Positions 29,090-54,100 of a stretch of DNA of 64,000 nucleotides are shown here, piece by piece (positions within the stretch are counted from its first letter, which is position 1; each line of letters opens with the position of its first letter). The position numbers were made by a program, and so were the translations under genes. The DNA lies in contig NC_087075.1 of assembly GCF_026151205.1 (NCBI RefSeq), forward strand, positions 4,004,359 to 4,068,358, in the 5' to 3' direction. The stretch is from Bolinopsis microptera (lineage: Eukaryota > Ctenophora > Tentaculata > Lobata > Bolinopsidae). The notes beneath the pieces were generated by a model, which ran no database searches, was not told the origin of the DNA, and saw nothing but the letters and a program-made list of their open reading frames with translations.

Positions 29090-30421
29090 ATGTCCCGGAG
29101 CCTACTGCTGATCACGCTGTGCCTCATTTTATTAATGCTGGTTAATCCAGGTGACTAGGTTACTAGGTTACTAGGTTACTAGGTTACTATGTTACTAGGT
29201 TACTAGGTAAATAGGTTACTAGGTTACTAGGTTACTAGGTTACTAGGTTACTAGGTTACTAGGTTACTAGGTTACTAGGTTACTATGTTACTAGGTTACT
29301 AGGTTACTAGGTTACTAGGTTACTAGGTTACTAGGTTACTAGGTTACTAGGTTACTAGGTTACTAGGTTACTAGGTTACTAGGTTACTAGGTTACTTGGT
29401 TACTATAGTTAATCCAAGTGACTTTATTTAGTTCATTTACTTATTACGTAAGTCAGCCTAAGGGGTAGAGAGTTTGGAATAGCTATAATTTAAAAATGAC
29501 CAAAATCTGGTTTATGTAATATGTGAACTATCCCCTTAAATTTCTGACGCAAATTTTGCACTTTCAGGATACCTCCTTTAATTTGATATTGCTTAATTAA
29601 TAATGTAATCGGAATATTAATTATTCAATTAGTGTCAAATTAATATTTTCCTTCAAGATGTATCATTCGGCAAAAGTTTATCAGCTTCCTATTTTGTTTC
29701 TATGAATAATTTTACAATTCACACTGACAAGCAGTTTTTCCTTTCAGGACTAGCAAAGAAAAACAAAAAAAGGAGAAACCAAAACAGATATGATGTATGA
29801 AATTTTAAGCTTGATAAGTAATCCTTCAATATTCCAGTGTACTATATATAAGCTGGTTTATTCACTTTGCCACAATGAACCATTATAAATCAAAATGTTA
29901 AAGCTTTAAAGACATCACTTTTCAAATCAAAACATCCGCAAAAAATTTAGTCCAGTTTGCATTCGTTAAACGAACATCATGATCTCTTTATGGATTATCG
30001 CAAGTTTATTAATCAAGCTTCAATTACGAAATAAGATGTAATCTCCACAGAATCTGACAAGCTGCTCAGGACATCAACTACGGGGCATGAACTGCGAGTG
30101 TCTAGCTTCTAACTATAACATGAGGGGGTGTCCTGATGATTTAAAAAAAGGTAATATACTTTCTGTATACAAAATGGTAACCTGGTAACCTTGTAAACTT
30201 GTAACCTTGTAACTCGGTAACCTGGTAACATGGTAACCTTGTAACCTTGTAACCTGGTAACCTGGTAACCTCATGGTATTGAATCCTCCTTCTCCCGCCT
30301 AGGTTCCAAACAGTGCATCCACTATGAAACCTACTGCAAAAGCTCCAAATTATCAGCAGCAAAACAGGGTAAAATGTGTTGTCAAGCTATCCTTTGCAAT
30401 ATCAACCTTAAAAACTGTTGA
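29090..30421 (+). CDS. Secreted cysteine-rich protein, four exons, 108 residues
   Basis: Exons 29090-29150, 29748-29794, 30051-30150 and 30303-30421 join in phase (1, 0, 1) with normal donors and acceptors (GTGACT, GTATGA, GTAATA; TTTCAG, CCACAG, CGCCTAG). Exon 1 is a signal peptide rich in Leu/Ile. Exon 2 adds a strongly basic Lys/Arg/Asn segment with an RR pair that could be a processing site. Exons 3 and 4 carry ten cysteines, enough for five disulfides, including a CEC and a CC, and the chain ends in Cys. No family was recognised; secreted growth, defence or venom-type peptides can look like this, but function cannot be assigned. Intron 1 begins with an 8-bp minisatellite at the donor itself, and intron 3 holds a related array. 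Confidence 0.72.
29151..29405. repeat. 8-bp tandem repeat (GGTTACTA) starting at a splice donor
   Basis: About thirty copies of an 8-bp unit. The first intron base of the cysteine-rich gene, in GTGACTAGGTTACTAGG, is already part of the array. The related motif recurs at 36909-37290, 42280-42340, 44455-45478 and 61445-61580. Confidence 0.93.
30173..30273. repeat. 8-10-bp repeat (GGTAACCT/GTAACCTG) in intron 3 of the cysteine-rich gene
   Basis: About ten imperfect copies of GTAACCTG/GTAACCTT. The unit is the reverse-complement class of the GTTACTAG arrays and close to the array at 30930-31121. Confidence 0.85.
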
Positions 30422-30886
30422 TTTGACGAAGTTGGGAATATAAACGGTAGTGGAAGAACTGTGGAAGTACTACCAATACCATAACTTCATAATGTAACAA
30501 TAGCAGATGTTGAGCTTACTGATCACGTAATTTATTGACAATAATTTTAGCCGCTTTGGAATTTCTTGGAAGAAAAATTACATAATCGTGATCAATGAAT
30601 TTATCCACAATAGCATTTTGACGATTTCATAAACGTGCGATTTTTAAAAGTGTTCATTTAACAAATATATACTTTGTAAATGTAATATTAGAAATAGTGT
30701 TTGAAATGTTGTTTATCTAATGTATATGAAAAAGTTTACACCGTGTTGACTGTTGACGTATTGCAGAAAGATTGCATATTGCAACAAACATAACGAAGAC
30801 ACACGGTAAAATTGTATTTTAACTTATCCCGCGGCGCGCGCAGGATACTGATAAGTAGATAACAATCCAAAGTAGTAAACTTGTAT
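30422..30886. other. Intergenic stretch between convergent genes
   Basis: AT-rich apart from a CGCGGCGCGCGC block at 30830-30841. No gene seen. Confidence 0.4.
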
Positions 30887-31159
30887 CAATCAGACGTCTA
30901 GGACCCCGCATTTACAGCAAGTTTTTTGACCTGGTAACCTGGTAACCTGGTAACCTGGTAACCTGGTAACCTGGTAACCTGGTAACCTGGTAACCTGATA
31001 ACCTGATAACCTGGTAACCTGGTAACCTGGTAACCTGGTAACCTGGTAACCTGGTAACCTGGTAACCTGGTAACCTGGTAACCTGGTAACCTGGTAACCT
31101 GGTAACCTGGTAACCTGGTAACAATCAGACGTCTAGGACCCCGCATTTACAGCAAGTTT
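30887..31159. repeat. 10-bp array (GGTAACCTGG) bracketed by 38-bp copies of a gene's stop region
   Basis: About nineteen copies of CTGGTAACCT at 30930-31121. Both sides carry the same 38 bases: 30887-30924 and 31122-31159. The right copy is the real last coding exon of the zinc-finger gene, including its TGA; the left one is a duplicate. Confidence 0.92.
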
Positions 31160-33017
31160 GTGTCGTGGAACTGTTTTCATTCTGACACTGTTTACAGGTC
31201 CAAGAGTAGGATGGTGGCCCTGAAGCAAATATTTGTATATAATTAATTACACCAGCAAATAAATCGTGTATAAACATATTTTCTGATTTATTGATTCTAT
31301 GGCAGCTAAACTTAAAGGGTTGGAAGAAAACTAAATAATCGGCATTGTCATCATTAGGAAGCCAAACATGAAGCGTTTTCTCCTTATCAATCACTAAGAA
31401 AATTACACGACAAACTAAGATAAAAGATCATTACTTGGTTGTGGAGTAGAAGATGAAGAGGATCCTGGAGCAATAGAAGTAGAGGGTCGTGGAGCAGAAG
31501 AAGAAGATGACTGAGGGGCAAAATGTTGTCTGGAATTAGTCGGTCTTCTTGATCTGCACTCGGCGCAATCTGAGAAGTATTTGGTTCAATGTCATTGTGT
31601 CTGTGAATAAACAAGCGAAGGAATGAAGGGTATTGAGTCAAGGAAAGTGTAAGGCCAAGGGGTTATCCGTTATGGAAACTCACTGTTTCCACCGTCAGTA
31701 TTGATTCTTCCACACCCAATACATATCCACTGGGTAACCTGGGAAGATAAGCATGATTCCCAAAACAATTAGACGAACCAGATGTAAAATTTTCAGATGA
31801 GACCCTAGCGTTCATTTTAATGTCCGTTCAAACAATGTCCGACAAGGTAGTTAAATTAAACACATTAACTGAATGCCTTTGATCAAGCGTTCATTTTTAT
31901 GTCTGTTGAAAATTATGCCTGTTCACGCATTGTCCGGTAAAATAACGTCCGATAAGGAATATGACATATCAGCTTATTAGGCACTACGTCATCAGTGCAC
32001 CTACCTGAACAGGTGTTGGACGCTTGGTCCTACACATCACACAGACAGTGTTACGAGTGCTGTTCACTGTTGTGCAGCTCAAACAGGCCCACTGTGGTGT
32101 GTCACCTTTCGAGGATCTGAGTTGACAAATTAAAATATAATTATAAGGTACATTTTTAAAATTCCTGATAGAATTTCCATGGTGAAAAATGAATTTTAAA
32201 TGCTGATAAAAAGGGAAACTCTAGAACTCGTTGTAAGTATAAAATGTACTTGGAATTGTTGGCTCCAGGAGCGGAGGAAGAAGTGGTAGGGACCGGTTGA
32301 TCGTTTATAGGTTCGTTTACGAAGAAGTAACATTTGCAGCAGCAATCAGTCCGAGGTGGATTAGCTGTTCTACATCGGGGACAGTACCAACCACCACTGA
32401 AAGAGGAGTTGTTGTTGGTTCAGTGTTCATGACTATGTGACAGCATATTAACTGGCTTAAGTCGAGTTACACTTGTATTTAATGATAGTCCCTTATTTAA
32501 TGACAGTCCTTTATTTAATAATAGTCCTTGCCGATTTTTAGTGGTTTGCTACATTCCAACGCAACGTTTTTGCGGCAAAATCAATTCTTACTCAAAAGTT
32601 GTCTTTCTCAAGTTAATGCAAAAACAAGGAAAATGTAATTTACTAACGCAGATGTGTATACAACGGTAGTTCTCCTCACTCCTCCGTAATAAGCTCCTCC
32701 GTAGTATCCAGGTCCCCAGCCAGGGTGTCCGGGCCCCCAGCCTCCGCCATGACCCCACCCTCCTCCGTGTCCGCCCCAACCTCCTCCCCCGTGCCCGCCA
32801 TGTCCGCCTCCGTGGCCGCCACCGTGGCCGCCTCCGTGGCCGCCTCCACCACCACCTCCTCCTCCCCCCGCCTCCACCTCCTCCACCTCCTCCGCCTCCG
32901 TGTGCCTGAAAAAATATCGTTTTAATTTTGTTCAAGTCGAACTCGAGTTCGGAGACAAAAACTGTTACCAAGGTGTCTGCAAAACCACAACCTAGGGATG
33001 ATTTGACTTACAACCAT
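31125..33017 (-). CDS. Gly/His-rich protein with four RanBP2-type zinc fingers
   Basis: Minus-strand exons 32648-32905, 32250-32396, 32005-32116, 31684-31738, 31435-31569 and 31125-31219 join in consistent phase and end at TGA. The first large exon encodes a Glu-rich start then GGH/GGW/GYYGG repeats. Then come four fingers fitting W-x-C-x2-C-x3-N-x6-C-x2-C: WYCPRC..CCKC, WACLSC..CVMC, WICIGC..CAEC (split between two exons) and WTCKQC..CCKC, joined by Ser/Thr/Pro linkers. Such fingers bind ubiquitin, GTPases or single-stranded RNA; Gly-rich plus RanBP2 finger layout recalls FUS/TAF15-like RNA-binding proteins, but no RRM is seen. The start is uncertain: an ATGGTT at 33012-33017 with donor GTAAGT and an 8-base microexon near 32974-32981 would fit the phase. 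Confidence 0.75.
31790..31960. repeat. TGTCCG-motif interspersed repeat in a zinc-finger gene intron
   Basis: Contains CATTTTAATGTCCGTTC and related phrases (TGTCTGTT, TGTCCGGTAAAATAACGTCC). The reverse complement of these phrases occurs at 56705-56790, 57480-57530 and 59140-59180, so it is a diverged member of that family. Confidence 0.5.
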
Positions 33018-33057
33018 ATTAGGCCCGTCCTCAAACTATCAGAACCAACTCAGATGA

Positions 33058-33249
33058 TCAGATTGTCAAATTTAACACATTAAATACAAAGTATAACGAA
33101 TAACAATTAACAGAATAACTACTGTCTAATAAGTTGTACGGAGAGAGTGTACATCTTGATACTGTAACTGTGTTAGTTGCAGTGTTAGTTGTACAAGCTA
33201 AACACGGAGTCGTGAGCCAACAACCACGGTATTGTTTAACTACTGTCAT
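33058..33249 (-). pseudogene. Possible degenerate zinc-finger exon upstream of the zinc-finger gene
   Basis: A 63-codon frame contains CLACTTNTATNTV..SRC, which resembles the second finger of the downstream gene (CLSCTTVNSTRNTV..VMC) in order and spacing but lacks the WxC spacing. It may be an old duplicate of that exon or a chance match. Confidence 0.25.
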
Positions 33250-33271
33250 TTTCCGCTCATTTACATTTTCT

Positions 33272-33382
33272 AATTGATGTTTTGGGACAAAGTGAGAGTC
33301 TCAACTCAGTTTTTCAAACAAACAGTTGTCGACGTTTCGGCCCACTGAGTGGAAACTTTCACTTTGTCCCAAAACATCAATT
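33272..33382. mobile_element. Short foldback/MITE with 23-bp perfect terminal inverted repeats
   Basis: AATTGATGTTTTGGGACAAA (left, continuing AGTG) is repeated inverted at 33360-33382. The 65-base middle contains GTCGACGTTTCGGCCCACTG, a phrase often seen in retroelement-derived hairpins. No coding capacity. Confidence 0.75.
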
Positions 33383-34640
33383 ATATGATCGACCCACTCA
33401 AAAGAGCGAAAAAACAGATTCTGATTAATATCATTTATGAGTATTGCTGAAAGCACAGTGTAAGGCCTACACGGACCGCCTCTAACTAGCCAATCCCTGT
33501 TTACATGCCGTGTAGCAGGGGACTAGAAAGATATATATTATATTTTCATGAAAAACCGCTCCATTGCATATAATATAAAGCCAAAGTATTCATAATAAAG
33601 TTTTAACTTGTCACTGATGTCATTTTCCCCCCGAAATATTCATTTTTCGGTAAAACGTAAATGTGTGATTATATTAACCGTAACGCTCAGATACTATACT
33701 ATTACTATTTACGCTCAATTACTAATACACAATTAAAATACGATTTTATTAAAAAGAAATAAATTAAATCAAATAATTTTGTAATTCTATAAGTATAATA
33801 TCTCTGCAGTGCACTGTAAATTGATAAACAGAACAGCAATTTAGTAATAGAATAATGGATTGTACACGACTAGCGTGTAAAAACTCAAACTCAACGTCAA
33901 ACGTGACGCGTAACATTTCAAACAAAAACAGAAATGGCGGACAATTTTATAGTGCGCGTGTTTGATCGTCCACATGTTCGATTTGTTCCAGAATAATCTT
34001 GCGCATGCGGCAAGTACGATTTTATTATTATGACCAAGGATCAACCGAAACCGCTTTTTTGGACTGGCAATAATCTCATCATATTTAGCATTAATAATAA
34101 TTTCGAATGTTCGTTTCATCTTGATGCTCGAGAGTCACTGTCGAAAGTAAAAACAGCTTATGATTTTTAAGGCATTGAATACAAATTAAGTTGATTTTAT
34201 CATCAATTCATATTTCAGCTGTATTGAGAAAAGACAATTGCAAAGAGAAGTCCTTTTAAATTCTTTAAGTCCTTCTAAAGTCTTTAAGTCCTTTTATATT
34301 CTTTAACGTGATAACTGATAAAGTTAATTCCAATAAGAACTTTAAAAACATTGAACAATTATCTACAAATATAATTCAATTGGTTAATTCTTGTTATTGA
34401 TTATTGAAGGTTGCATAAGCAGTTATTGCCAAATTAGTGTCCGACTGACATTTATTTTTCACAGTCACAATAATACACGTTTTTGTGGCAATCATAACTG
34501 GTTAAGTCTCTAATTAGTCATATCTGAATTTCTGACTGCAAAGTTATTTTTCAATGATACTGGATTCTATCCGAGGGTCTCTATAGAGATCACGACAGTG
34601 TCTACTTACAACACAACTCTACGGATACAATGTTATAATG
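33383..34640. other. AT-rich intergenic stretch
   Basis: No exon recognised. A 92-codon minus-strand frame at 33841-34119 has no family resemblance and was not called. Confidence 0.45.
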
Positions 34641-34654
34641 TACGGAATTTTATA

Positions 34655-35820
34655 ATGACTGACTGAAAGAAGACTGAAAGAAGCTGGCAGCATGTTAAAA
34701 CGGCAAGTTATTGTAATATAGCAGTGTTGTTGACTGAAAGAAGACTGAAAGAAGCTGGCAGCATGTTAAAACGGCAAGTTATTGTAATATAGCTGACTGA
34801 AAGAAGACTGAAAGAAGCTGGCAGCATGTTAATACGGCAAGAAGACTGAAAGAAGCTGGCAGCATGTTAATACGGCAAGTTATTACACTGAAAGAAGCTG
34901 GCAGCATGTTAATACGGCAAGTTATTGTAATATAGACTGAAAGAAGCTGGCAGCATGTTAATACGGCAAGTTATTAGACTGAAAGAAGCTGGCAGCATGT
35001 TAATACGGCAAGTTATTGTAGTATAGCAGTGTTGTTGACTGAAAGAAGACTGAAAGAAGCTGGCAGCATGTTAATACGGCAAGTTATTGTAATATAGCAG
35101 TGTTTTATAATGACTGACTGAAAGAAGACTGAAAGAAGCTGGCAGCATGTTAATGACTGACTGAAAGAAGCTGGCAGCATGTTAATACGGCAAGAAGACT
35201 GAAAGAAGCTGGCAGCATGTTAATGACTGACTGAAAGAAGCAGGCAGGATGTTAATACGGCAAGAAGACTGAAAGAAGCTGGCAGGATGTTAATACGGCA
35301 AGAAGACTGAAAGAAGCTGGCAGCATGTTAATACTCTGCAAGAAGACTGAAAGAAGCTGGCAGCATGTTAATACGGCAGGTTATTGTAATATAGCAGTGT
35401 TGTTGTTCTGAAAGAAGCTGGCAGCATGTTAATACGGCAGGTTATTGTAATATAGCAGTGTTGTTGTTCTGAAAGAAGCTGGCAGCATGTTAATACGGCA
35501 AGAAGACTGAAAGAAGCTGGCAGCATGTTAATACGGCAGGTTATTGTAATATAGCAGTGTTGTTGTTCTGAAAGAAGCTGGCAGCATGTTAATACGGCAG
35601 GTTATTGTAATATAGCAGTGTTGTTGTTCTGAAAGAAGCTGGCAGCATGTTAATACGGCAGGTTATTGTAATATAGCAGTGTTGTTGTTCTGAAAGAAGC
35701 TGGCAGCATGTTAATACGGCAGGTTATTGTAATATAGCAGTGTTGTTGTTCTGAAAGAAGCTGGCAGCATGTTAAAACGGCAAGTTATTGTAATATAGCA
35801 GTGTTGTTGTTCGTGTATCT
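34655..35820. repeat. Tandem array carrying copies of the cyclase stop-codon region
   Basis: About twenty variable units built from GACTGAAAGAAGCTGGCAGC, ATGTTAATACGGCAAG and TTATTGTAATATAGCAGTG. The last unit (35770-35820) is the 3' end of the guanylate cyclase coding exon, stop codon included. Other copies repeat that stop region on the minus strand. Units vary by loss of the middle or right blocks. Confidence 0.93.
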
Positions 35821-38800
35821 GGATATTTCTTCACTACTGTTCCTCTCTCCAATCAGCCAATGTGTCTCCATCTCCCCTTTTCCCTGCAAACAAACAATAG
35901 ATCACTTTCACTTTCACTTTATTGCACACAAGATACTGAAGAACAGCTTTTAGTTCACCACTATATAAAAGCTTCATACGTTTTTCGACCAAATAGTTAT
36001 TAAATGTTCACTTCACAAATTTTAACCTTGACGAAGATAATGCCTCTTTTAGATATGAGAAAACCTTCCTCCAGGATGACACCACAAACGTCTGTGATTT
36101 GTATTCTCATGCCTGTTGTATTATTTCATTAAATTTGAGTTTTTAATATAAAAACAATTAAGATATAAGCAGATTGTCAAAAAGACGTGGCTTTCACAAA
36201 CAATTAAACAGAAAAAAAATCAAGAAGGTCCAAAACTTCAACTCTTTTGCAAGTGCACCTAAACAAGACGATTTCATTCTAGCAGCAGTGTTGACGGTGT
36301 CTCCGAAAACACAGAATCTGGGTAACTTTACTCCGATAATCCCAGCTGCACATGGTCCTGTAATAACGTTGTCTGGTCATAACAAATGTATATCAACCCC
36401 GTAGTTATGATAAATACACTGGTAAAGTTAAAAGTGGTTTCCAACTGCAAATAACCAGAGTCGTCTCGAATACAATCGATAACAAAAACGTTCACTCTTG
36501 CCTCTTTACCAAATTTAAGATAAAGTACAGACCTGAATCCCACCTGTCACACTTGATCCCGGCATCCTCTTCTTGCTGGGACACTACAACTTAGAGGTAA
36601 ACTAACCATATAAATGCTATCCTCTTCCAGTCCCTAAAAAAACAAAAAACAAACCTGAAGCGATGCCCTGTATGAGCCTAAAACAGACAAAATCCCCATG
36701 AACACCCAGCTGCAGACCCCGACACATAACACTCCTCAGTCCCAGAGCAGTGAGCGCTATCTCCGAGCAGTGTTTGGTTGTGGGACTTCTGTCAGGTAGA
36801 CCCGATACCACCAAACACTCTCCTGCTGCTGTTTCTATTTCGTTTACCTTGTGGGATTCAAGCACCTGGTGGAGGGGCTGTGTTGGAGCATTGTTAAAAC
36901 AAAACACTTATAGGTCACTAGAATTGGTTACTAGGTTACTAGAACTGGTTACTAGGTAACTAGAACTTGTTACTAGGTAACTAGAACTTGTTACTAGGTT
37001 ACAAGCACCTGGTGGAGGGGCTGTGTTGGACCATTGTTAAAGCAAGACACTTTTAGGTCACTAGAATTGGTTACTAGGTTACTAGAACTGGTTACTAGGT
37101 AACTAGAACTTGTTACTAGGTAACTAGAACTTGTTACTAGGTTACAAGCACCTGGTGGAGGGTACTGTGTTGGACCACTGTTAAAACAAGATACTTATAG
37201 GTCACTAGAATTGGTTACTAGGTTACTAGAACTGGTTACTAGGTAACTAGAACTTGTTACTAGGTTACAAGTTCCTGGTGGAGGGTGCTTTGTTTGACCA
37301 TTGTTAAAACAAGTCAAACAAGTGACTAGGTGAGGGGGCGGGCCGCAGCACTCTTGTTGTCGGAACCTATCTACAGTAACAACTATAATCTGGTTGGTAT
37401 ACTGAGAAACCTTGAGGTAGATCCATGAGCAAACAAAGAACTATGATGACGAAGTATCTCGATTTCCTGTCTGTCAAAGAATTTATTGTCGTCAAAACAA
37501 GATATACTTATTGAAACAAGTAAAGTTAGGTTAAGTAAAAAGTACTTTTATATTAAATAAAGATTTATTTGAATTGTAGATTGGTTCTTTAAAGATTTAT
37601 GGAGAGGAATTACGACGGAATGTAACGTCAGGGTATGTTGTATTGATCTGAATACTTAAAGGAAGGTAAACCATATTTGCGCATATCATTAAGAAACTGA
37701 CCCTGTCTCAACCACTTGCCATAATACAGATATCCACACTTGTCTTAAATATGAGTGCTTATTTCCTCACCAGTGAAGCAGTAATACTCACCAGTCATCA
37801 GTGTCTACATTAATTAATATGTAACGTGCATTATTGAAAAATATTAGAATTTTCTTGTTACGCTATAAATGAGAAAAAATAATCTTACACAGTTACACAA
37901 CTAAAAGTTTGCAATTTACCTCTGCAATCCTCGTGTAAAACGCCTCTAGGAACCGCACATAAGCAAATGGACTCATATCTCGTGCAGCTAACCGCTGTGA
38001 CGTGAGTTTTCTTTAGACTAAACTAATTATAATCAAATAATTAAGTAATTAACTATTGTAGCAAATTTTCTCATCTTTAAACGTTATCCACGTGTAATAA
38101 TACATATTATATATATATTATTAAACGAATGAAAATGTTTCATCTAATAACTGCGGAGTCAAAAATTTTAACAAATTAGTAATAAATTAGTTAATCATTG
38201 GATCAGTCTCTTACCTGGAAATCAGCTAGATCTGCGAATAGAACTGTAGCACTCTGATAACTTCCTACATACGGTGTGTTGGTTTCACGGCACCTGCAAA
38301 ATATTTATAGGTTTAAAAATATATTATGTATAATGTTTAGTAATGTAAAATGTATTTATATCCACCAGCGTGCGCTTTTTCGCATAGCGGGCTCTCGCCA
38401 GCCCGCTGTCAAAGGGCCCGATATCTCTACAGCCCGCTCATGATATAGCCCGCTAACAAGTGACATTTAATTTGACCAGTAGCAATATAGCCCGGAGTTC
38501 TCTAAAATATTTTCAGTTTCTGTATCGTCTCCATGTGAAATTCCTTATTACACTGACTATATATACATTTTATTTTTGTGTCCGGTAGGGCTGCTCATGC
38601 AGCTCGTGAGCAGATGACATGATACTTTGATTTATATCAAAGTTATCATAACACACTACATAATACACATCAGCACTATAATCCCCCTATATTATTGATA
38701 TTCATCGTCACTGACATTACATCCATTATTCCCACGGCCCAGGAATGCAGTGCATCTCCAGCCCCTATATACGACACAGCCCTTTATGATTGGCTTACAT

Positions 38801-41800
38801 TGAACACGTGACGTGTTACCATGGTTACAACAATTAGTGGCGACCTTTTCTAGAGTTGACTTTTATACAAGCTCCATTGTTTATTTATAAAATTATATAT
38901 TAACTGTAATACGCCCGCTGGTGGATATAATCCACATCACCTCGACCCGCGGGCGGAAAAATCGTATAGCACTCGGGCCCGATGGGCCCTCCGTGCTATA
39001 CGAAAATATGTCCTCCTCGGGCTAGCGCCCTCGGGGACATATGAAATATTGCACGCGCGTGCGCGTGCAATATTTTGTTCCGCCCGCGAGTCTCCGGTGA
39101 TATGTATATATATTGGAGCTTAGTTTCATTCAATTATTCTGTTAAACTTCTTTGGTATTTTAGTGACCGCAGTTTACGATCATTAGCATTTTATGGAGTT
39201 AAGTTATTGAGTTAAGTTTTAGGGAGACGAAGTTGATGAATGAACTTTGTTTGAGAATTTAATTGGACTCTGACCCCTGCAGGTCTGTTAGACCCACAGG
39301 AATTGAAATTAAATTATAAACTTTGGAGGACAATAACCTTCTCATTTCTCAGTTTCTTCTCAGTTGCCACTTAAGCGTTCATACACGACACATCTTACAA
39401 CACTTACCATCATCCTACATTACACATTCTGATTCCCCCGGCATCCTCCCGTAGGACTGCCATACCCCAGAGGTAGGCAAAGCTGAAAGCATCCACATGC
39501 TATCCTTTCGTGGGCCACCCAGGCTACACAGTACACAATAGGGCATAACCTTCAAATTTCCTTAACCACACAATATGGCATCATCCGGAACAAACCTTCT
39601 AATTTCCTTAACCACACAATAGGGCATCATCCGAAACAAACTTTTTCATTTCCTTAACCACACAATAGGGCATCATCCAGAACAAACCTTTTCATTTCCT
39701 TAGCCACACAATAGGGCATCATCCAGAACAAACCTTCTCATTTCCTTATCCACACAATAGGGCATCATCCGGAACAAACCTTTTCATTTCCTTAACCACA
39801 CAATAAGGCATCATCCAGAACAAACCTTTTCATTTCCTTAACCACACAATAGGGCATCATCCAGAACAAACCTTTTCATTTCCTTAGCCACACAATAGGG
39901 CATCATCCAGAACAAACCTTCTCATTTCCTTAACCACACAATAGGGCATCATCCAGAACAAACCTTTCCATTTCCTTAACCACACAATAGGGCATCATCC
40001 AGAACAAACCTTCTCATTTCCTTAACCACACAATAGGGCATCATCCAGAACAAACCTTTCCATTTCCTTAACCACACAATAGGGCATCATCCGGAACAAA
40101 CCTTCTCATTTCCTTAACCACACAATAGGGCATCATCCAGAACAAACCTTTTCATTTCCTTAACCACACAATAGGGCATCATCCAGAACAAACCTTTTCA
40201 TTTCCTTAACCACACAATAGGGCATCATCCAGAACAAACCTTTTCATTTCCTTAACCACACAATAGGGCATCATCCAGAACAAACCTTTTCATTTCCTTA
40301 GCCACACAATAGGGCATCATCCAGAACGAACCTTCTCATTTCCATAACCACACAATAGGGCATCATCCAGAACAAACCTTTTCATTTCCTTAACCACACA
40401 ATAGGGCATCATCCAGAACAAACCTTCTCATTTCCTTAACCACACAATATAGGGCATCATCCAGAACAAACCTTTTCATTTCCTTAACCACACAATAGGG
40501 CATCATCCAGAACAAACCTTCCCATTTCCTTAACCACACAATAGGGCATCATCCGGAACAAACCTTCTCATTTCCTTAACCACACCATAGGGCATCATCC
40601 AGAACAAACCTTCTCATTTCCTTAACCACACAATAGGGCATCATCCGGAACAGCAGCGCCTCCGACATGTCGTTTTGCATTTTCAGTACTTTCATTGTCG
40701 TCTTCGTTCTTTCGCTTTGAGCCTGTGAGAGGAGCCGAGCTTTACACCAACATACAAATTTATTAATACTCATTGATTTCATACAATTTGTTTAAAATGG
40801 ATTTTACCGTAAGGTCTGTACTATTCACTTATTGGCCCATAAAATATTAAAATCGCTAAAATATTCAAAATCTCTACTATCAGATCTACACCTTGAGGTA
40901 CAGATAGATTTGTTTTATCTTTCTGATGTCGATGACAGCAAAAACAGAAAGAACAAGGCATAGTATGATGAGGACAACTTCTGTAGCGTACTGGTAGAGG
41001 ATAGCTTTATTGATAAGACTGGTCATGTTCTCGTTCACTGTGAAGGCTACTGCATCTTGGATCGCTTTTATGTGCTGAAGGTGAAGTAATTACAGATGTA
41101 ATTCGGACAGTTTTAGAGCTTATTATTTAAACTTCGTGAAAATTCAATACGGTTCAATATAATCATATTACTATATAGCAATGCACTATTTTGTACAAAT
41201 TGTCACATGGTATCCTATCAACTCAGCAGCTATAAAAGTATAAACACGCAACATAATCATAGTAGTATGAATGTAATAACTAATATATGCTACTAATCAA
41301 TATTACAGGTAGTAAGTTACAAATACGTATTATAATGTTACATACCATTACTAAAGTACTAAGTTACTACTAATCACGGTCCCTTGCAGGTATTAAATCT
41401 ACAAACCCACCTCATCGTAGCTCATGCCGATGTTAATCCAGAACAGAGCGATCTTGTGGGACTGCTCCACCGGTGCATTGTCTCTAATCTGCTTGAGGAG
41501 AGTCCTCAGATCACCGCTGAAACGGCATTTTAATTGGAAGTAGTCATGGAAACGGTATTATTAAACATAGTTTGGATTTTTATTCCGATAAATAAGTCCA
41601 ACTTCAAAGCAGCTGTCTTACTAAAGAATCTCCTAATCACATTGAAGACATTGTATACTACTAGTTGATAGTTTATATTACCATGAAGCAGTGTATTAAC
41701 AATAACGTAAAAGACTTTGTGTTTGGAATGATGGTATATCATGTTTGATATTTCATATTATATAATATTGGTAGCAGTGGACAATGTCCGTTACCTCTGT

Positions 41801-44800
41801 ATTGTGCTCTGCCAATTGCAACACTTGAATTACTTTATTGTATAATTATACTGTTTGACACTTTTTAGTAACTGCAGAAGATGCATCTGACCATTTTCAA
41901 TAGTTCCTACTTTTAGTTTTATCATGTTTGAAATGTATACCTGTATTTGAACAGAGACTGGTATATTTTCGATCTGATTGAGTCCCCGCCATAAATTTGG
42001 GAGAATTGCAGTGAATAGTCGTGCAGCTGAAACGAGTGTTAGTTAGAAAAATAATGCTTGTTCGATTGGTTTTAGCCAGTAGATACTTAGATAGTATACC
42101 AGAATATTTTGAAGTAATGATACATCTTCTGCATCATTAACCCAACATAATGTTTAAAGTGATTCCGATGATAAATCCAAGAAGTGTCCAACATAGCTGG
42201 CATGTCAAAATGAGCCAGATGTAATATTAAAGCTACATTCAAAGCACCAATAAAGAGGGATTGTATGTCGAGGGAGATAGTTACTAGGTTACTAGGTTAC
42301 TAAAACTCACCTAGGTTACTAGGTTACTAAAACTCACCTTCAAAGCACCAATAAAGAGGGAGTGTATGTCGAGGGAGATGGTTCCGTTCATGAAGTACAT
42401 CACTCCCACGCTCTCTATCAAGAAGAGCTGGTACCTGCTAAAGATGATCGTCTCGTACGTGACCTGCAGTTATTAGAACTGGTTACTAGGTTGCTAAAAC
42501 TCATCTTAATTTTTTAAAAGACAAGACTAAAAAAGACTAACAAAATCGTCCACTCGAGGTACAACAGATTCCTTACTGTGAAGCTTAACAGAATTGATTG
42601 AAATGATTACCTTGGTAACCTTGGTAACTCATTTAAAAAAGTTAAGACTATAACCAATCACTTGACTCACCAAAGTGTTCCACACAAGTGAAAAAGAACC
42701 ACCCTGTAACGACTGAATTACTCCTTCATAAATAATCTTAATCATGATGTGATAAGCTTTAAAGGCCTCTTCTGCACGCAGCCTCTGTGCGTCAATAAGT
42801 CCCCGTAGCTTCTCCAAGTCCGCTATAAATTCAAGCTTACTCGCGTAGTTGGTTTCAAGTGTCTTGGGCCACGTTGATATGAGAGCTGAGAGATAAAAAT
42901 ATCATTTAGAATATTTTAAAATGGAATTTTGTGTGGACAAGGTTATTAGTAATTAGTATTACTATGATATTTTGGAGAGGTTCACTGTTTATCAGTCTCA
43001 TGATAAGATAATAATTTTAGGGATAATATCCGGTAGTAGAGACTAGGTAGGAAAAGTGAAACTACTGTTTAGGAGGAAACGCGAGCTTTAAGTTTGCTAC
43101 ACTTTTATCAGGCTCAAATTATTTGTTATATAGTAGTGTTGAAAGTATTAAAGGTTATTAATACTTTCAACACTACTATATAAAAAATAATTTGAGGCTC
43201 TAATGATGTAGTTTTACGAAGATTTCAAGCCTTATGTTGTGTGTTTCCTTTCGTGTTCAAAAGCATTATAAAGGTTATTTGTTATATAGTAGTGTTGAAA
43301 GTATTAAAGGTTATTAATGTATCACAATTTCTCTCTTGGAATTACAAAAACCAGCTTCATTTCTTTTAATAATCTGACCTAAAGATTCGTTGCTCTTTAT
43401 TCTGAGGTCACTGACAACCACAACTGGGTAGTCGAGGTTTCCGTATATGTACATCATAGTCCACAACATCTCAGCATTCAGTCCTTCTACTGCTTTAGAA
43501 AACTGAAATAAAATAGTCAAGTAAAAATAAATAAATTAGTCCCTCATAAGCTTTAGGAAGCTGAAATGTATTAGTCCCTTAGAAAATGAAATACGCTCAT
43601 ACAGGGTGAGTTGAAAATAGTGTGTGGAATGTAAAGATCGATAATTTTTTTTATGAAGGAGCAAATTTTGAAAGGTGTATTGCTATCAGTTCATAAACGT
43701 TACACATTTCATTGTTGCATCTCATTCGATTCTGACTCATAATTTGGATGATTTTTGGCAGTTTCCCAAAAATTCGTAAATTCGTCCTAATGGGGTTCTC
43801 AAATCGCGTGCCCTGAAAATCGAGTCTACAAATATATCTTCTCCTACATATTTTGCGCAATCACCCTGAAACTTTCAGGATATGTTCTAGGGATCATTTA
43901 GAAGAGATGAGCCAGACAAAATTTTGAGATAAGCCTTTAATACATTTTTGTAGTTCTTCAACTGATATAACAGTGTAGTGAGCTGAAAAATAAAGATAAA
44001 AAGTCATTAAAACTACTTTAGAAAAATAAAATAGAATTGATTAAAATATCCGCAAAGTTATTTAAGTAAAACTAACTTGTTGGCTGCTTCCCACTAGATT
44101 GTGATTAGCACGACTTTGTCCGTGCGACGTATTTCCCTGGAATACATACAATTATGTAACGTGATGGAAATATTTTAAACGGGTAATAACCTGTCCAAAC
44201 CCAGGATACATAACATGAAGACTTTGTTGTAACTTTGTATGAGAAGCATTAATACTGATAATTAAATAATATCCAGTTGAAGGAAAATAAATGAAACAGG
44301 AAGTTAGGAATATGGGCAAATGTTCGGCGTCAACACCATCTTCAGACTCAATAAATGTATTTAAATGTAGTTGTGAAAATAGTTTAAAACTTATTTTATC
44401 TATATTATATTTTTGTCTATCAATTTTTTTCTATTATCAATTTTTTATAAGGGTAACTTAGTAACTGGTTACTAGGCTACTAAAACTGGTTACTAGGTTA
44501 CTAGAACTGGTTACTAGAACTGGTTACTAGAACTGGTTACTAGAACTGGTTACTAGAACTGGTTACTAGAACTGGTTACTAGAACTGGTTACTAGAACTG
44601 ATTACTATAACTAGGTTACTAGGTTACTAGAACTGGTTACTAGGTTACTAAAACTGGTTACTAGGTTACTAGAACTGGTTACTAGGTTACTAGAACTGTT
44701 AACTAGGTTACTAGAACTGGTTACTAGGTAACTATAACTGGTGACTAGGTTACTAGAACTGGTTACTAGGCTACTAGAACTGGTTACTAGGTTACTAGAA

Positions 44801-47725
44801 ACTGGTTACTAGGTAACTAAAACTGGTTACTAGGTAACTAGAACTTATTACTAGGTTGCTAGAACTGGTTACTAGAACTGGTTACTAAAACTGGTTACTA
44901 GAACTGGTTACTAGAACTGGTTACTGGCACTGGTTACTAGAACTGGTTACTAAAACTGGTTACTAGAACTGATTACTATAACTAGGTTACTAGAACTGGT
45001 TACTAGGTTACTAGAACTGGTTACTAGGTTACTAAAACTGGTTACTAGGTTACTAGAACTGGTTACTAGGTTACTAGAACTGGTTACTAGGTTACTAGAA
45101 CTGGTTACTAGAACTGGTTACTAGAACTGGTTACTAGAACTGGTTACTAGAACTGGTTACTAGAACTGGTTACTAGAACTGGTTACTAGAACTGGTTACT
45201 AGAACTGGTTACTAGAACTGACTACTATAACTAGGTTACTATAACTGGTTACTAGGTTACTAGAACTGGTTACTAGGTTACTAGAACTGGTTACTAGGTT
45301 ACTAGAACTGGTTACTAGGTTACTAGAACTGGTTACTAGGTTACTCAAACTGGTTACTAGGTTACTAGAACTGGTTACTAGGTTACTAGAACTGGTTACT
45401 AGGTTACTAGAACTGGTTACTAGGTTACTAGAACTGGTTACTAGGTTACTAGAACTGGTTACTAGGTTAATATAGAACTGGTACCTGGTAGATATGGTAG
45501 CAGGAGTAACAAACCACCGCTAAGATGGGAATTATAATACAGACTATTATATTCCTGCTCTTCTTCTTGTACTCGAAACCTTTGTCGTCCTGTCACATGA
45601 TGTTTAATTCCAGTTACACCACAAGATACAAAATAGAATAACAAGGTCACATGTTACAGTAAGAAAAAGATTCAACGAACCCTTATACTTTACCGCGGCT
45701 GGTTCCTTTTTCTTAAACTCTGTGGTAAATTGTGGTTTTACAGTAGTGATAATTACGGTTATTCTGCCTCTTGATCGCTCAGTATAAATTGTAAAATAAA
45801 TTGTCTTACCATAATATATTGATCTTTATACGACCCGCTTATCATTGGTTATAATTCTAGCTGGTCGAGTCGATTAGTGGTAGACGGAGTCAGTATTTGA
45901 GAAAAGGTGGATACAAAGTCATATCAATCGTAGAAAATCATAGAGTTTAAGTTTTAAACAGTTTTATCGCAAAATATAAGAAAATACTTACATTCACTAC
46001 GCTGTCCACAATATCATTAAAATCATTTTGTATTTTATCCCAGGAATTTACTGAATCTGAAAAAATAATTTCATGATAATTTGATCGTTTGATAATGAAA
46101 CATATCGCATCAGGAATATGAGGAATAAGAATTTGTAAAATGAGATAATGACTGATCAGGAAAGCATGTCCACGAAATACTTGATAGTGATCGCATGGGG
46201 CCAACAATGCTGAGTGGAAGGGTTGAAGACAAATAATTAAAATTACCAGCAATCCTGAGTGAAAGGATTGAAGACAGATAATTAACTTTACCAGCAATAC
46301 TGAGTGAAAAGGTTGAAGACAGATAATTAACTTTACCAGCAATACTGAGTGAAAGGATTGAAGACAGACAATTAACTTTACCAGCAATACTGAGTGAAAA
46401 GGTTGAAGACAGATAATTAACTTTACCAGCAATACTGAGTGAAAAGGTTGAAGACAGATAATTAACTTTACCAGCAATACTGAGTGAAAGGATTGAAGAC
46501 AGATAATTAACTTTACCAGCAATACTGAGTGAAAAGGTTGAAGACAGATAATTAACTTTACCAGCAATACTGAGTGAAAAGGTTGAAGACAGATAATTAA
46601 CTTTACCAGCAATACTGAGTGAAAAGGTTGAAGACAGATAATTAACTTTACCAGCAATACTGAGTGAAAGGATTGAAGACAGATAATTAACTTTACCAGC
46701 AATACTGAGTGAAAAGGTTGAAGACAGATAATTAACTTTACCAGCAATACTGAGTGAAAAGGTTGAAGACAGATAATTAACTTTACCAGCAATACTGAGT
46801 GAAAAGGTTGAAGACAGATAATTAACTTTACCAGCAATACTGAGTGAAAGGGTTGAAGACAAATAATTAAAATTACCAGCATTCCTGAGTGAAAGGATTG
46901 AAGACAGATAATTAACTTTACCAGCAATACTGAGTGAAAGGATTGAAGGCAGACAATTAACTTTACCAGCAATACTGAGTGAAAAGGTTGAAGACAGATA
47001 ATTAACTTTACCAGCAATACTGAGCGAAAGGGTTGAAGACAGATAATTAACTTTACCAGCAATACTGAGTGAAAGGGTTGAAGACAAATAATTAAAATTA
47101 CCAGCATTCCTGAGTGAAAGGATTGAAGACAGATAATTAACTTTACCAGCAATACTGAGTGAAAGGATTGAAGACAAACAATTAACTTTACCAGCAATAC
47201 TGAGTGAAAAGGTTGAAGACAGATAATTAACTTTACCAGCAATATTGAGTGAAAGGGTTGAAGACAGATAATTAATATCAAATAACGGAGTAGTTCGCTG
47301 TTTATTAGTCTCATGATTGAAATACTGATATCTGGATATTATCCGGTTGGAAGAGACAAGGACAAGTGAAACAAGGAAGTTAGGAGTAAGGGCAAATTTT
47401 CGGCGTCAACGCCATCTTCAGGCTCAATAAATGTAATAGATTTGTGGTGTTGTAATTAGTTTAAAACTCATTACAAATCTATTACATTTATTGAGCCTGA
47501 AGATGGCGTTGACGCCGAAAATTTGCCCTTACTCCTAACTTCCTTGTTTCACTTGTCCTTGTCTCTTCCAACCGGATAATATCCAGATAACAGATAATTA
47601 ACTTTACCAGCAATACTGAGTGAAAGGGTTGAAGCACCGGGAGACTTGTTCTTTTCCCCTTTAATGTGCACCTTTTTCTTAGGGAGGAGCCGTCTCCGTG
47701 ACTTGTACAGCTTATTAATCCTCAT
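35785..47725 (-). CDS. NIT-domain receptor guanylate cyclase, 18 exons
   Basis: Makes cGMP from GTP at the membrane. Exons (minus): 47608-47725, 45992-46056, 45485-45589, 44077-44136, 43944-43982, 43346-43502, 42671-42885, 42338-42464, 41941-42026, 41411-41516, 40892-41074, 40610-40722, 38215-38293, 37920-37994, 36655-36865, 36259-36357, 36027-36112, 35785-35883; about 673 residues. A basic N-terminus leads to TM1 ([15 protein letters not shown]), then a NIT nitrate/nitrite-sensor region (exons 5-10), TM2 ([15 protein letters not shown]), a signalling helix ([10 protein letters not shown]) and a class III cyclase domain. The cyclase domain has LFADLADF (metal Asp), [27 protein letters not shown] and [12 protein letters not shown]. 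The usual second metal Asp of IGDAY is Glu (AGECL). The guanine-selecting Glu and Cys appear kept. No kinase-homology domain, as in NIT cyclases. Phases agree throughout except one extra base in exon 8 (about 42420). The exon 15 donor may instead lie about 53 bases earlier. Confidence 0.88.
36909..37290. repeat. ~115-140-bp tandem unit containing copies of a splice acceptor
   Basis: Three further copies of a unit made of GTTACTAG-type repeats plus a segment containing CAAGCACCTGGTGGAGG. That segment is the exon 15 acceptor and first exon bases of the cyclase gene (36858-36874), so each copy holds a decoy 3' splice site on the minus strand. Confidence 0.88.
37291..37919. other. Cyclase intron 14
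   Basis: AT-rich, apart from a GGGGGCGGGCCGC block near 37334. Nothing else recognised. Confidence 0.5.
38355..38931. mobile_element. Element with ATATCCACCAGCG inverted ends, GC-rich termini
   Basis: TATATCCACCAGCG at the left (about 38356) and CGCTGGTGGATATA at the right (to about 38931) are inverted. The left end has AGCGGGCT..AGCCCGCT hairpins and repeated AGCCCGCT. The middle is AT-rich with no coding. It lies in cyclase intron 12, immediately beside the hairpin cluster at 38948-39088; the two may be one element. Confidence 0.5.
38948..39088. other. GC-rich cloverleaf-like cluster of three hairpins inside an outer stem
   Basis: An outer stem (CGCGGGCGGAA at 38948-38958 with TTCCGCCCGCG at 39078-39088) encloses three palindromes. 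They are TCGTATAGCAC/GTGCTATACGA (38962-39003, with GGGCCC repeats inside), ATATGTCC/GGACATAT (39006-39042) and a perfect 15+2+15 palindrome (39044-39075, arm AAATATTGCACGCGC). The whole 141 bases can fold as a four-way junction on either strand. Confidence 0.8.
39532..40655. repeat. 46-bp tandem array made of the cyclase exon 12 donor junction
   Basis: About 24 units. Read on the minus strand, each unit carries the last ~37 coding bases of exon 12 (GGATGATGCCCTATTGTG and onward to GAGAAG) followed by the donor GTTTGTT. The copy at the right end is the real exon. Most copies have CTGG where the exon has CCGG; a few keep CCGG. Confidence 0.95.
42235..42337. repeat. Partial duplicate of cyclase exon 8 end plus doubled donor
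   Basis: 42238-42281 repeats, with few changes, the exon 8 3' end (CAAAGCACCAATAAAGAGGG and onward). Between it and the exon, the donor-side segment CTCACCTAGGTTACTAGG occurs twice with GTTACTAG units. It looks like an early or reduced version of the larger junction arrays. Confidence 0.85.
43111..43200. repeat. Inverted repeat (~41-bp arms) in cyclase intron 6
   Basis: The left arm contains ATATAGTAGTGTTGAAAGT and the right arm its reverse complement, with a 5-base loop and AAATTATTT/AAATAATTT outer symmetry. Half copies occur at 43275-43320 and near 5290-5340. Confidence 0.8.
44230..44345. repeat. Single-arm relative of the 47329-47589 foldback
   Basis: Shares AATATCCAGTTG, ACAGGAAGTTAGGA, GGGCAAATGTTCGGCGTC and CATCTTCAGACTCAATAAA with one arm of that foldback, but without the second arm. 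A further weak relative starts near 42985. Confidence 0.7.
44455..45478. repeat. GTTACTAG / GGTTACTAGAACT array beside the cyclase exon 3 donor
   Basis: A kilobase of interleaved 8-bp (GTTACTAG) and 13-bp (GGTTACTAGAACT) units. On the minus strand it starts six bases after the exon 3 donor, and the intron's own first bases (GTACCAGTTCTA) resemble the unit GTAACCAGTTCTA. Confidence 0.93.
46200..47275. repeat. 45-bp tandem array made of the cyclase exon 1 donor junction
   Basis: About 24 units. On the minus strand each unit carries the last 27 bases of exon 1 (CTTTCACTCAGTATTGCTG) plus 18 intron bases starting GTAAAGTTAATT. The unit is a multiple of three, so it is open in two frames. The original junction (47590-47635) is now separated from the array by a foldback insertion. 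Confidence 0.95.
47329..47589. mobile_element. Foldback element with 117-bp perfectly paired arms
   Basis: 47329-47445 and 47473-47589 appear to be exact reverse complements, with a 27-base spacer. The outermost bases are TATCTGGATATTATCCGG. Array sequence ACAGATAATTAA occurs on both sides (near 47265-47276 and 47590-47601), so it inserted into the 45-bp array, perhaps with that as target duplication. Perfect arms imply very recent formation. Confidence 0.88.
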
Positions 47726-51149: not shown

Positions 51150-54100
51150 TTATTCAACAAAGTTACAAAGAAATAGTCCCAATGTTAAAAATACACAAAG
51201 CCCGGAAATTGCAGTTGGGATTTCACTCCCTTCATTCAACGACAGGGCTGATGCGATAGTCCCCAAAGTGGAAGCAGCGCTCATAACGATGTTGAAGATC
51301 TTAGCAGATTGTTCTCCGAGGTTACTGTTGTCCAAACTCCACTTTTTGTAAAGGTAGAACTTGCTGGCGGTGTACAGGTTAGCATGAAACGCCTCCCCTA
51401 TACCCATTAGAATCAATCAGTCAATCCTATCACCAATTGGTAGGTGAAGTCAAAGAATTTGAAATCACTTGTTGTGGCTCCAAATGCGACTACTGATCCA
51501 CAGTGATAGAGTACGTTTCCTATCGCCATTGTGGTGATGACATTAAGCGTTTTGATTCTACCAGCTAAAAAGCTCAATGTTAACGCAGAAATGAATGAGG
51601 TAATTCCCATGATGCGCAATATTTGTACGGCTGAAGAAAGGGACATGGTGGTGGAATACAAAATCCTTGCAGGCAGCACATAACGTATAAGATCACTTAA
51701 CGTATTATTCAGGAACAAGACTACATCGGGAAAGTAGAATGCAATTTTTTGTGACCAAAGCGAAATAGACTGAGGGCCGATGCTGTTAGTGTTACTTCGA
51801 TCGGTCAATTCTGGGGACTCCTTATTAGTGCCGGTGGAATCAACTTTTTTTTATTACTTTCTTTCACCTCTATGTTTGTTAGGAATGGAAATACTAAAAG
51901 AGGGAGGATGTTGAAGGAGGCTATACCAAAACCAACTAATACCCACCCACCAGCTACAAATAGCTCAGTGCCCAATATTGCTGAGAGGATTGCCCCAACT
52001 TGCATGAAACTGCTTATCAAGATCATTGTCTTCTTATCTTCCTTAAGATACAAATCTATTACCTCGCCCTGAAATTATTTTTAATAACTGTCCCTGCAAT
52101 ATAGAAAATTGATAAATCTATATTTGAAATTTTTGAAAGCTGCAAATCATATGCTTGACATAGTTTAAAATAAAAGTTAGAAAAAAACATATGGCTGCAG
52201 ATGGAATAATTCCTCACCTGGACAAACACATGCATTATGCCCATTGCAAACCCTTGAATACCCCTCAGTAATGCTATAGTTACGAAAATAACAGGAGCAT
52301 CACAGTTCATATCAATGAATACTTGAATCAAAGCCATCATGGAGGAGCAGGTAAGGTTCAAAAGGCTCGCACAAAAATATCTTTTGAAAAGTGACGCGTT
52401 TCTGATGGTTTTTGGTAGATAGTTGTAGATGTATGGGCCGGCAGGCGAAGTTATTAGAGCTGCAGAAATGGAAACAGTGCCTGAAAAAAACAGCGATTGT
52501 TTTGTACTTTTAGTTTTATATAATTGTTTAAACTCTTGAAATACCGCTATAGGTTTTCTAGTTTTAGCTTTATATAATTTTACTTGAGTTTAAACTCTCT
52601 AATGTCTCGATGCATTTTCCTTGGAACTACAGCTTTAATACGTGATGCGGAAATTTTTATGTTTGGAAGATGAATATGTATTATGTAATTTACCCAAAAC
52701 CCATAATTGGGTAGAGTGGACCGCTGCCAGTGCCAGTGTCTCTCTTTCCCGAACAAAAGTAAATGATATTAATTTGAATGACCGCCCGCAAATACAAAAT
52801 GACACAAATAATGAAATCGGTTGGTCGCTTTTCCCATTCATTCACGGCTTACGAATTGTAATAAGTTTCGATTAATTACATCAATCACATGCCGTAAAAA
52901 TCTCTTTGGGTTGCTTTCGGGTCGATACCTAGTATTTTGGGATAAGGGCGGTAGTTAGTGTTCAATTAGCTGATGTTTATTGAATCGTTATTCCGAGTAC
53001 AGCTGCCTTAGGGTAATTCTTCTGAAAGATTACTCATTACAATTCGTAAGCCGTGAATGAATGGGAAAAGCGACCAACTAATTTCATTATCTCAATCATT
53101 TTGTATTTGCGGACGGTCATTCAAATTAATATCATTTATATTTCGATACTAGGTATCGAAAGAGAAACTGGCAGCAGTCCACTCTACCCAATTATGGGTT
53201 TTTGGTCAATATCATCTCTTTTTGATTAATGTCAGGGTATACTTTACAAATTTATAACTAATAACTTCATTAATAAAGAGGTTATTTCGACGATTTCAAA
53301 ATTTCACCTTTGAAAACATTTCCTAGTGTTTCGCTAAGTATATCTGTCGATAATAACTGACTGAATATGTCACTTTATACTTTTTACTTATTCAAGTTGG
53401 CATTAAATTCATATTTAATGCCATTCAACTATCATGGGAAAGCAGAATCTAATCTAAATCACGAATGAGCAAAATTCTCACCTTTCGCACGTGAAAACGA
53501 AAACTTTGAGCTGACGTTGCGTGCGCTTCCAATATTGAATCACCACGACCGTAAATTTTTGCATATTTGTATTTATAATTATATACAGGGGGGAGGGGGG
53601 GGGGGGGGGGGCAAAATTCAGTCTGCAAACGTTGGCCTTAATATTAATAACTCAGTCACTAAGTGCCCAATTGAAATAATTATTTCTTGTATGACTTATA
53701 TTAGTACCACTAGCTGGTTCGAGAAATTTGTCAAATCTACAAATATTCGTGTTCATATTTTTCAAATGACGGTTTATTTTCGCATTTATTTGATAGTTTG
53801 GATGGTACCGCGACAATTGACCCCCCGACAATTGACCCCCCGACAATTGACCCCCCGACAATTGACCCCCCGACAATTGACCCCCCGACAATTGACCCCT
53901 ATGTAATTACACTGGGGTGCAATTGTCGCGAAATCTAGGTTTTAGTACGACAATTGACCCCCCGACAATTGACCCCTATGTAATTACACTGGGGTGCAAT
54001 TGTCGCGAAATCTAGGTTTTAGTACGACAATTGACCCCCCGACAATTGACCCCCCATGTAATTACACTGGGGTTAGCCTTAGGGTCAGGGTCCTGGATCA

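Follow-up and report, generated by a model that had tools for sequence, protein, structure and literature searches.

Minisatellites copied from exon edges at splice junctions of the ctenophore Bolinopsis microptera

Several genes of the lobate ctenophore Bolinopsis microptera carry minisatellites whose repeat units are copies of the coding edge next to which they lie. We encountered them in a stretch of 64,000 nucleotides (hereafter the window; contig C4 of a genome totalling 264.65 Mb), where the neighbouring exon or coding edge proved to be copied in seven of the eight cases listed by the original prediction, the donor of exon 3 of a cyclase gene being the exception. The expectation that the phenomenon recurs across the genome was borne out by edge copies in other cyclases and in dynein, ADAM and Sushi-like genes. 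These arrays are probably best accounted for as splice-shielded junction minisatellites, or 'mirages'. The origin of spliceosomal introns is a long-standing question for which few sources have been caught in the act, and the copying of exon edges may help explain the birth of new introns.

Results

The cyclase gene of the window comprises 17 exons on the minus strand (47725..35785) that yield a single clean reading frame. Its two listed relatives are the Mnemiopsis leidyi protein P0001 (94% identical) and a Bolinopsis microptera paralog, P0002 (80%), whose gene lies within C2:4543200-4555000; the exon borders match both. An exon near 43944-43982 was discarded as false, being missing from P0001 and P0002. 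The exon numbering of the original prediction appears to include one false exon of this kind, so that its exons 8, 12 and 15 are exons 7, 11 and 14 here.

The donor of exon 1 (47608..47725, minus strand; protein alignment, reading frame and junction-copy count) seeds a unit of 45 nt, formed by the last 27 nt of the exon and the first 18 nt of the intron, which occurs in 24 copies including the original with at most six mismatches; the 23 further copies of the donor junction constitute an array in intron 1 (46201..47275, minus strand; TRF and copy count). Between the first 45-bp unit and the remaining array lies a foldback, MITE-like element (47288..47592, no strand assigned; self inverted match of 92%), partial copies of which are found at 44251-44412 and 42980-43062, likewise in cyclase introns. 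Exon 11 (40610..40722, minus strand; protein alignment and reading frame) similarly donates a 46-nt unit of 43 exonic and 3 intronic nt, with 23 copies including the exon's own at up to four mismatches (39556..40652, minus strand; TRF, paralog comparison and copy count), in an intron that is missing in the paralog. The part of exon 11 that seeds the array codes for residues retained in Mnemiopsis, which argues that copying proceeded from exon to intron. Beside the acceptor of intron 11, a stretch at 38353-38935 has 14-nt inverted ends, TATATCCACCAGCG, detected by eye; neither another copy within the window nor a longer inverted match turned up.

At the donor of exon 7 (42338..42463, minus strand; protein alignment and reading frame) the predicted partial copy is a lone intronic repeat of the last 42 exonic nt with two mismatches (42237..42278, minus strand; copy count), which comes after a short GTTACTAG-type stretch. 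The acceptor of exon 14 (36655..36865, minus strand; protein alignment and reading frame) was said to be present in three copies: the edge is indeed copied, with two ungapped matches including the true one and two more by eye, in 143-bp units of acceptor, exon sequence and GTTAC-type filler (36859..37313, minus strand; TRF and copy count; intron 13 is missing in the paralog), but the exonic part is 7 nt only. Likewise, the region of the cyclase stop codon is copied, with nine matches of a 30-nt stretch including the original (at most five mismatches) instead of the roughly 20 copies claimed; the last exon (35785-35883) together with the array of the stop codon and 3' flank, whose unit is 61 bp by TRF, occupies 34660..35883 on the minus strand (TRF, frame and copy count).

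The two neighbouring genes each contribute one case. In a gene encoding RanBP-type zinc fingers (Pfam E-values of 3.5e-7 for an upstream finger and 0.018 for the last), 37 identical nt of the stop region at 30888-30924 and 31123-31159 bracket a (ACCTGGTA)n array (30888..31159, minus strand; TRF, direct-repeat test and copy count). In a predicted cysteine-rich gene on the plus strand, whose model has no Pfam match, the 16-nt edge of the first donor at 29141 recurs with one mismatch at 29408 on the far side of a (AGGTTACT)n array at 29149-29405 (whole feature 29141..29423; TRF and copy count). The remaining case is exon 3 of the cyclase (45485..45589, minus strand; tandem-repeat and edge-score data), where a GTTAC-type array begins at intron base +3. 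The GTTACTAG-type array of this intron, itself missing in the paralog (44463..45482, no strand assigned; TRF and paralog comparison), does look like the beginning of the intron, yet it holds no exon sequence (edge score 6.0), and we ruled it out as an exon-edge copy. The eight cases had been called independent; seven show edge copies, but those at exons 3, 7 and 14, the zinc-finger stop and the cysteine-rich donor all involve one common GTTAC-type satellite, which often forms the filler between edge copies.

Several other elements were noted in the window. A spliced-leader-like sequence ending in AATTTGAG is present in cyclase intron 5 at 43113-43145, 43164-43196 and 43275-43301, as two full copies (one at 97%) and a partial one, in both orientations; it resembles the ctenophore spliced leader as given in the accessible part of PMC8527503. 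An open frame of 1040 codons at 8959-12081 looks by eye like the endonuclease and reverse transcriptase of a non-LTR element, and interstitial arrays at 54071-54883 consist of telomere-like TTAGGG-related and GGGTCCT repeats (TRF).

When 24 exonic nt were scored against their own intron, the donors of introns 1, 7 and 11 reached 24, 23 and 24, as against 14.5 or less for edges of the same length scored against foreign introns; interior windows scored up to 18.5 (intron 7) and 20 (intron 11), and the exon 14 acceptor edge, at 7.0, was inconspicuous in this 24-nt test. By TRF boundaries one of the five intronic array clusters of the cyclase spans a junction, versus 0.3 of 5 expected at random, a comparison that is post hoc since the gene was chosen for its arrays; exon sequence is shared by four of the five clusters (introns 1, 7, 11 and 13). 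A set of introns chosen irrespective of arrays (33 pairs, 32 of them solved; array period of at least 20) gave one junction-spanning cluster in nine, in a test that missed the two-copy duplication of the cyclase locus L009 and in which a few splice choices score poorly. In a further test, on 95 arrays from the sampled sequence, 10 were bracketed by direct repeats of their own flank versus 0.2 expected, several of the ten being nested or neighbouring repeats.

Of 46 adenylate/guanylate cyclase matches in the genome, 41 exon hits were examined, and four of these have exon-edge copies: L009, L013 and L023 by blastn, the first being the two-copy duplication, and L014 by TRF and sequence. Copies at C7:6603524 in L013 touch the acceptor AG with no exon and were excluded from this count. 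L013 and L014 arose by recent duplication, their blocks being 85.6-97.6% identical, and TRF finds 60 copies of the same acceptor edge in L013 versus 2 in L014 (25 and 1 in an ungapped count, which excludes indels). The donor edge ILYADLVGFTAMSST| of L026 is present in 36 copies; its exon lies outside the 41 examined hits and matches PF00211 below the cut-off (E = 0.035). Among the 73 myosin matches in the genome, 35 exon hits in four stretches were examined and none showed junction copies. Exon-edge copying is not universal and depends on gene or region, as the counts of 0/35 for myosins and 4/41 for cyclase domains indicate, although the sampled stretches are biased by gene family and do not represent a random genome sample. 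At the myosin locus L032 the profile match extends into satellite, and at L030 a myosin exon is tandemly duplicated (C3:9154012-9154203 and 9154255-9154485; 79% over 126 nt), making the pair candidate mutually exclusive exons.

The genome was also searched for arrays of the splice-donor words AGGTAAGT and AGGTGAGT, with two scrambled words, TAGAGTGA and AGATGAGT, as controls; an array was called where an 8-base word occurred three times at spacings of 25-55 bases. Raw matches (reversed letters in brackets) numbered 1418 (12) for AGGTAAGT, 1359 (197) for AGGTGAGT, 1020 (1026) for TAGAGTGA and 172 (384) for AGATGAGT; with the first control so near AGGTAAGT, raw pattern counts were dropped as evidence. 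As giant arrays dominate the raw numbers, distinct units were instead counted by eye in the places listed. Among these, units with a period of about 25 or more numbered 5 in 14.1 Mb for AGGTAAGT and 8 in 17.6 Mb for AGGTGAGT, compared with 6 in 69.0 Mb for TAGAGTGA and 4 in 163.4 Mb for AGATGAGT. Per Mb, these eye-counted units exceed the pooled controls 8.2-fold (P=0.0011) and 10.5-fold (P=1.4e-5), respectively; the control rate derives from the places of TAGAGTGA and AGATGAGT, the reverse control TGAGTGGA lying outside the place counts. An array of 24-25 bp at C1:12064195 was counted as 25, and arrays of 22 bp (C1:3114174) and 23 bp (C1:17645722) did not enter the rate. As single words outside arrays, the donor words are not commoner than the controls in 245,037 gene-biased bases (AGGTAAGT 10 and AGGTGAGT 4 versus 7-12), and AGGTGAGT is in fact rarer.

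We read the exon side of each of the 15 donor arrays at the places listed (7 + 9 - 1, one array being common to both words). Exon-edge copies are present in eight (L035, L037, L039, L042, L045, L048, L049 and L050), that of L045 being a match of 13/15 nt by eye. Two of the eight exons have clear homology, to dynein heavy chain (L037, E 1.8e-7) and ADAM (L039, E 1.3e-9); two are Sushi-like with matches below the cut-off (L035 and L042); and the other four are identified by an open frame entering the donor. No Pfam match was obtained for L043, L045, L047, L049 and L050, nor any Pfam or PDB match for the L048 exon. At L043 and L047 the array runs from the donor onward without an exon copy, L034 and L036 both have the same donor-bearing unit, within a dispersed element, and the exon side is ambiguous at L040, L044 and L046. 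The dynein exon adjoining the donor array at L037 also has a nearly whole duplicate upstream. By rough extrapolation from 8 arrays per 17.6 Mb, and with the two words accounting for 2 of the 48 donors observed, the genome would hold a few thousand such arrays.

Origin of the arrays and gain of introns

The plainest explanation would be coincidence: in a repeat-rich genome minisatellites land anywhere and some touch exons. Tandem repeats do make up 11% of the 182 kb of sampled cyclase loci, and junction-spanning clusters are as few as 1/9 in the 32 introns and 1/5 by TRF in the window gene. However, the units copy exon sequence rather than merely adjoining it, and donor-word arrays exceed their controls by the factors given above; we therefore consider coincidence improbable. 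An assembly artefact is scarcely credible: tandem arrays are difficult to assemble, but the copies differ mutually by 0-6 mismatches and other, unrelated loci show the same pattern.

We favor the proposal that these are splice-shielded junction minisatellites, which would arise in several steps. An ordinary short tandem duplication of about 20-150 bp would first fall across the border of an exon with its intron, or across an AG|GT inside an exon. The spliceosome would then pick the copy beside the intact exon and the extras would leave with the intron, the protein remaining unchanged; such shielding is suggested by the intact frames and the homologous proteins, and we infer that the exon-side donor is the one used in splicing. 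Freed from selection, the repeat could grow or shrink, a step seen as the copy-number difference between the duplicates L013 and L014 (about 60 versus 2). Introns would thereby lengthen, and some might originate where a piece of exon containing a donor-like AG|GT is duplicated. Finally, decoy sites that would otherwise be used first may become disabled, as seen once: in intron 4 of the paralog (L041, L028) the true acceptor is CTGCAG while copies in the array have CTGCAC or CTGTAC, so the decoy acceptors seem to be disabled. The copies are apparently harmless to their genes because splicing can remove them. The earlier claim that introns are expanded by arrays made from exon edges, leaving decoy splice sites, stands for most of the arrays.

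Alternatively, the copies might have a use: rows of alternative donors, or of in-frame repeats, could control splicing or extend the protein. Two frames of the 45-bp array of exon 1 stay open, for 463 and 431 codons, and the unit lengths of 45, 39, 54 and 57 bp are divisible by three, but those of 46, 44, 64, 61 and 143 bp are not and the Mnemiopsis protein P0001 is without the repeat copies, making this very unlikely. A weightier alternative is an active process that directs duplications to exon edges, such as breaks linked to splicing or R-loops, or template switching. The excess of donor words over control words of similar frequency in arrays and the 10/95 arrays bracketed by their own flank would fit such targeting; against it, no enzyme or signal was found, copying also affects acceptor edges and stop regions, and the myosins examined have none. 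We regard it as rather unlikely. Accordingly, of the predicted process that duplicates exon edges, edge-seeking is not shown and shielded tandem duplication fits the anatomy, but the 8-10 fold donor-word excess, which is not readily accounted for by purely random placement combined with shielding, leaves room for it. This enrichment suggests that junctions are favoured either at the start or in survival.

The comparison with the paralog bears on intron gain. Over the comparable part P0002 lacks introns 3, 11, 13 and 14 and has one intron of its own (a further C-terminal intron, beyond the stop of the window gene, was left out), so that 5 of 17 introns differ. Edge copies occur in three of the five discordant introns, namely intron 11, intron 13 (with 7 exonic nt) and the one unique to the paralog, intron 3 having an array near its start and intron 14 none; they also occur in three of the twelve shared introns (1, 4 and 7), those of intron 4 being clear in the paralog only (34-bp x10 array including the first 9 nt of the exon) and weak in the window gene (score 11.5). 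Discordant introns are thus not significantly richer in edge copies (3/5 versus 3/12, p=0.21; 4/5 versus 3/12, p=0.06, if intron 3 is counted). The donor side of intron 11 duplicates exon sequence and its acceptor side does not. In the paralog-only intron it is the acceptor edge that is repeated, as a polypyrimidine-AG with 12 exon nt. The site of intron 13 is read through by the cyclases L009, L010, L013 and L021 and that of intron 11 by L009, which favours gain; against gain, L011 and L023, two cyclases of greater distance, are interrupted by an intron only a few residues away from where intron 13 lies. Near-equivalents of intron 14 exist in L010 and L017, and its absence from the paralog may reflect loss. 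The direction of these changes is read from a few other cyclases.

This raises a broader scenario, which we put forward only tentatively and consider somewhat doubtful: in B. microptera, and perhaps in lobate ctenophores generally, junction duplication could be a standing genome-wide process, with possibly thousands of arrays, aimed or strongly retained at junctions and serving as a main current source of new introns. A genome with frequent, recent exon-edge duplications would allow the tandem-duplication route to be measured.

Relationship to known systems

Among the papers listed by literature searches, none dealt with exon-edge minisatellites in ctenophores. The original paper on amphioxus mirages reportedly concerned Adh3. 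The view that no genome-wide system of this type had been described needs changing, as mirages of amphioxus were already published: the available text of PMC3087553 describes tandem units spanning splice junctions, on the donor or acceptor side, in many copies with splice signals, reports them as harmless to splicing, proposes them as a route to new introns and gives 3 and 6 units in two haplotypes of BflGb6. The Bolinopsis units equally span the exon-intron boundary, and both ends are affected, with donors at exons 1, 7 and 11 and acceptors at exon 14, L013, paralog intron 4 and the paralog-only intron. They differ in belonging to another phylum, in reaching about 60 copies, in extending to stop-codon regions and in being backed by a genome-wide word test. 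The copy-number difference between the recent duplicates L013 and L014 may reflect the length instability of mirages. Mirages are hence not peculiar to lancelets and recur here in unrelated genes, the Bolinopsis arrays being mirages in a new phylum where they are apparently abundant.

Intron gain by tandem duplication has been reported in single or few cases, in the portions consulted of PMC3629103 for fission yeast, where two introns are composed of 24-nt tandem repeats, and of PMC2891723 for Drosophila. As there, a segment with a proto-splice site is duplicated in Bolinopsis; unlike there, gain is inferred from paralogs only and several arrays lie in shared introns. In human segmental duplications, internal tandem repeats modify the exon-intron organisation of genes (accessible sections of PMC2812944); they too are minisatellite-sized units that change the structure of paralogous genes, with some putative intron gains, but they lie within exons and introns of recent paralogs, whereas Bolinopsis units carry the exon edge itself.

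Finally, introners are mobile families that make introns genome-wide, one element entering many genes (as stated in the available part of PMC9860276). That introner-like transposons inserted the present introns complete with splice sites is a slight chance at most: foldback elements and GTTAC-type satellites do occur in several of these introns, and the unit shared by L034 and L036 is an introner-like exception, but elsewhere in the loci read the unit is the local exon edge, equal to the host exon and different from gene to gene.
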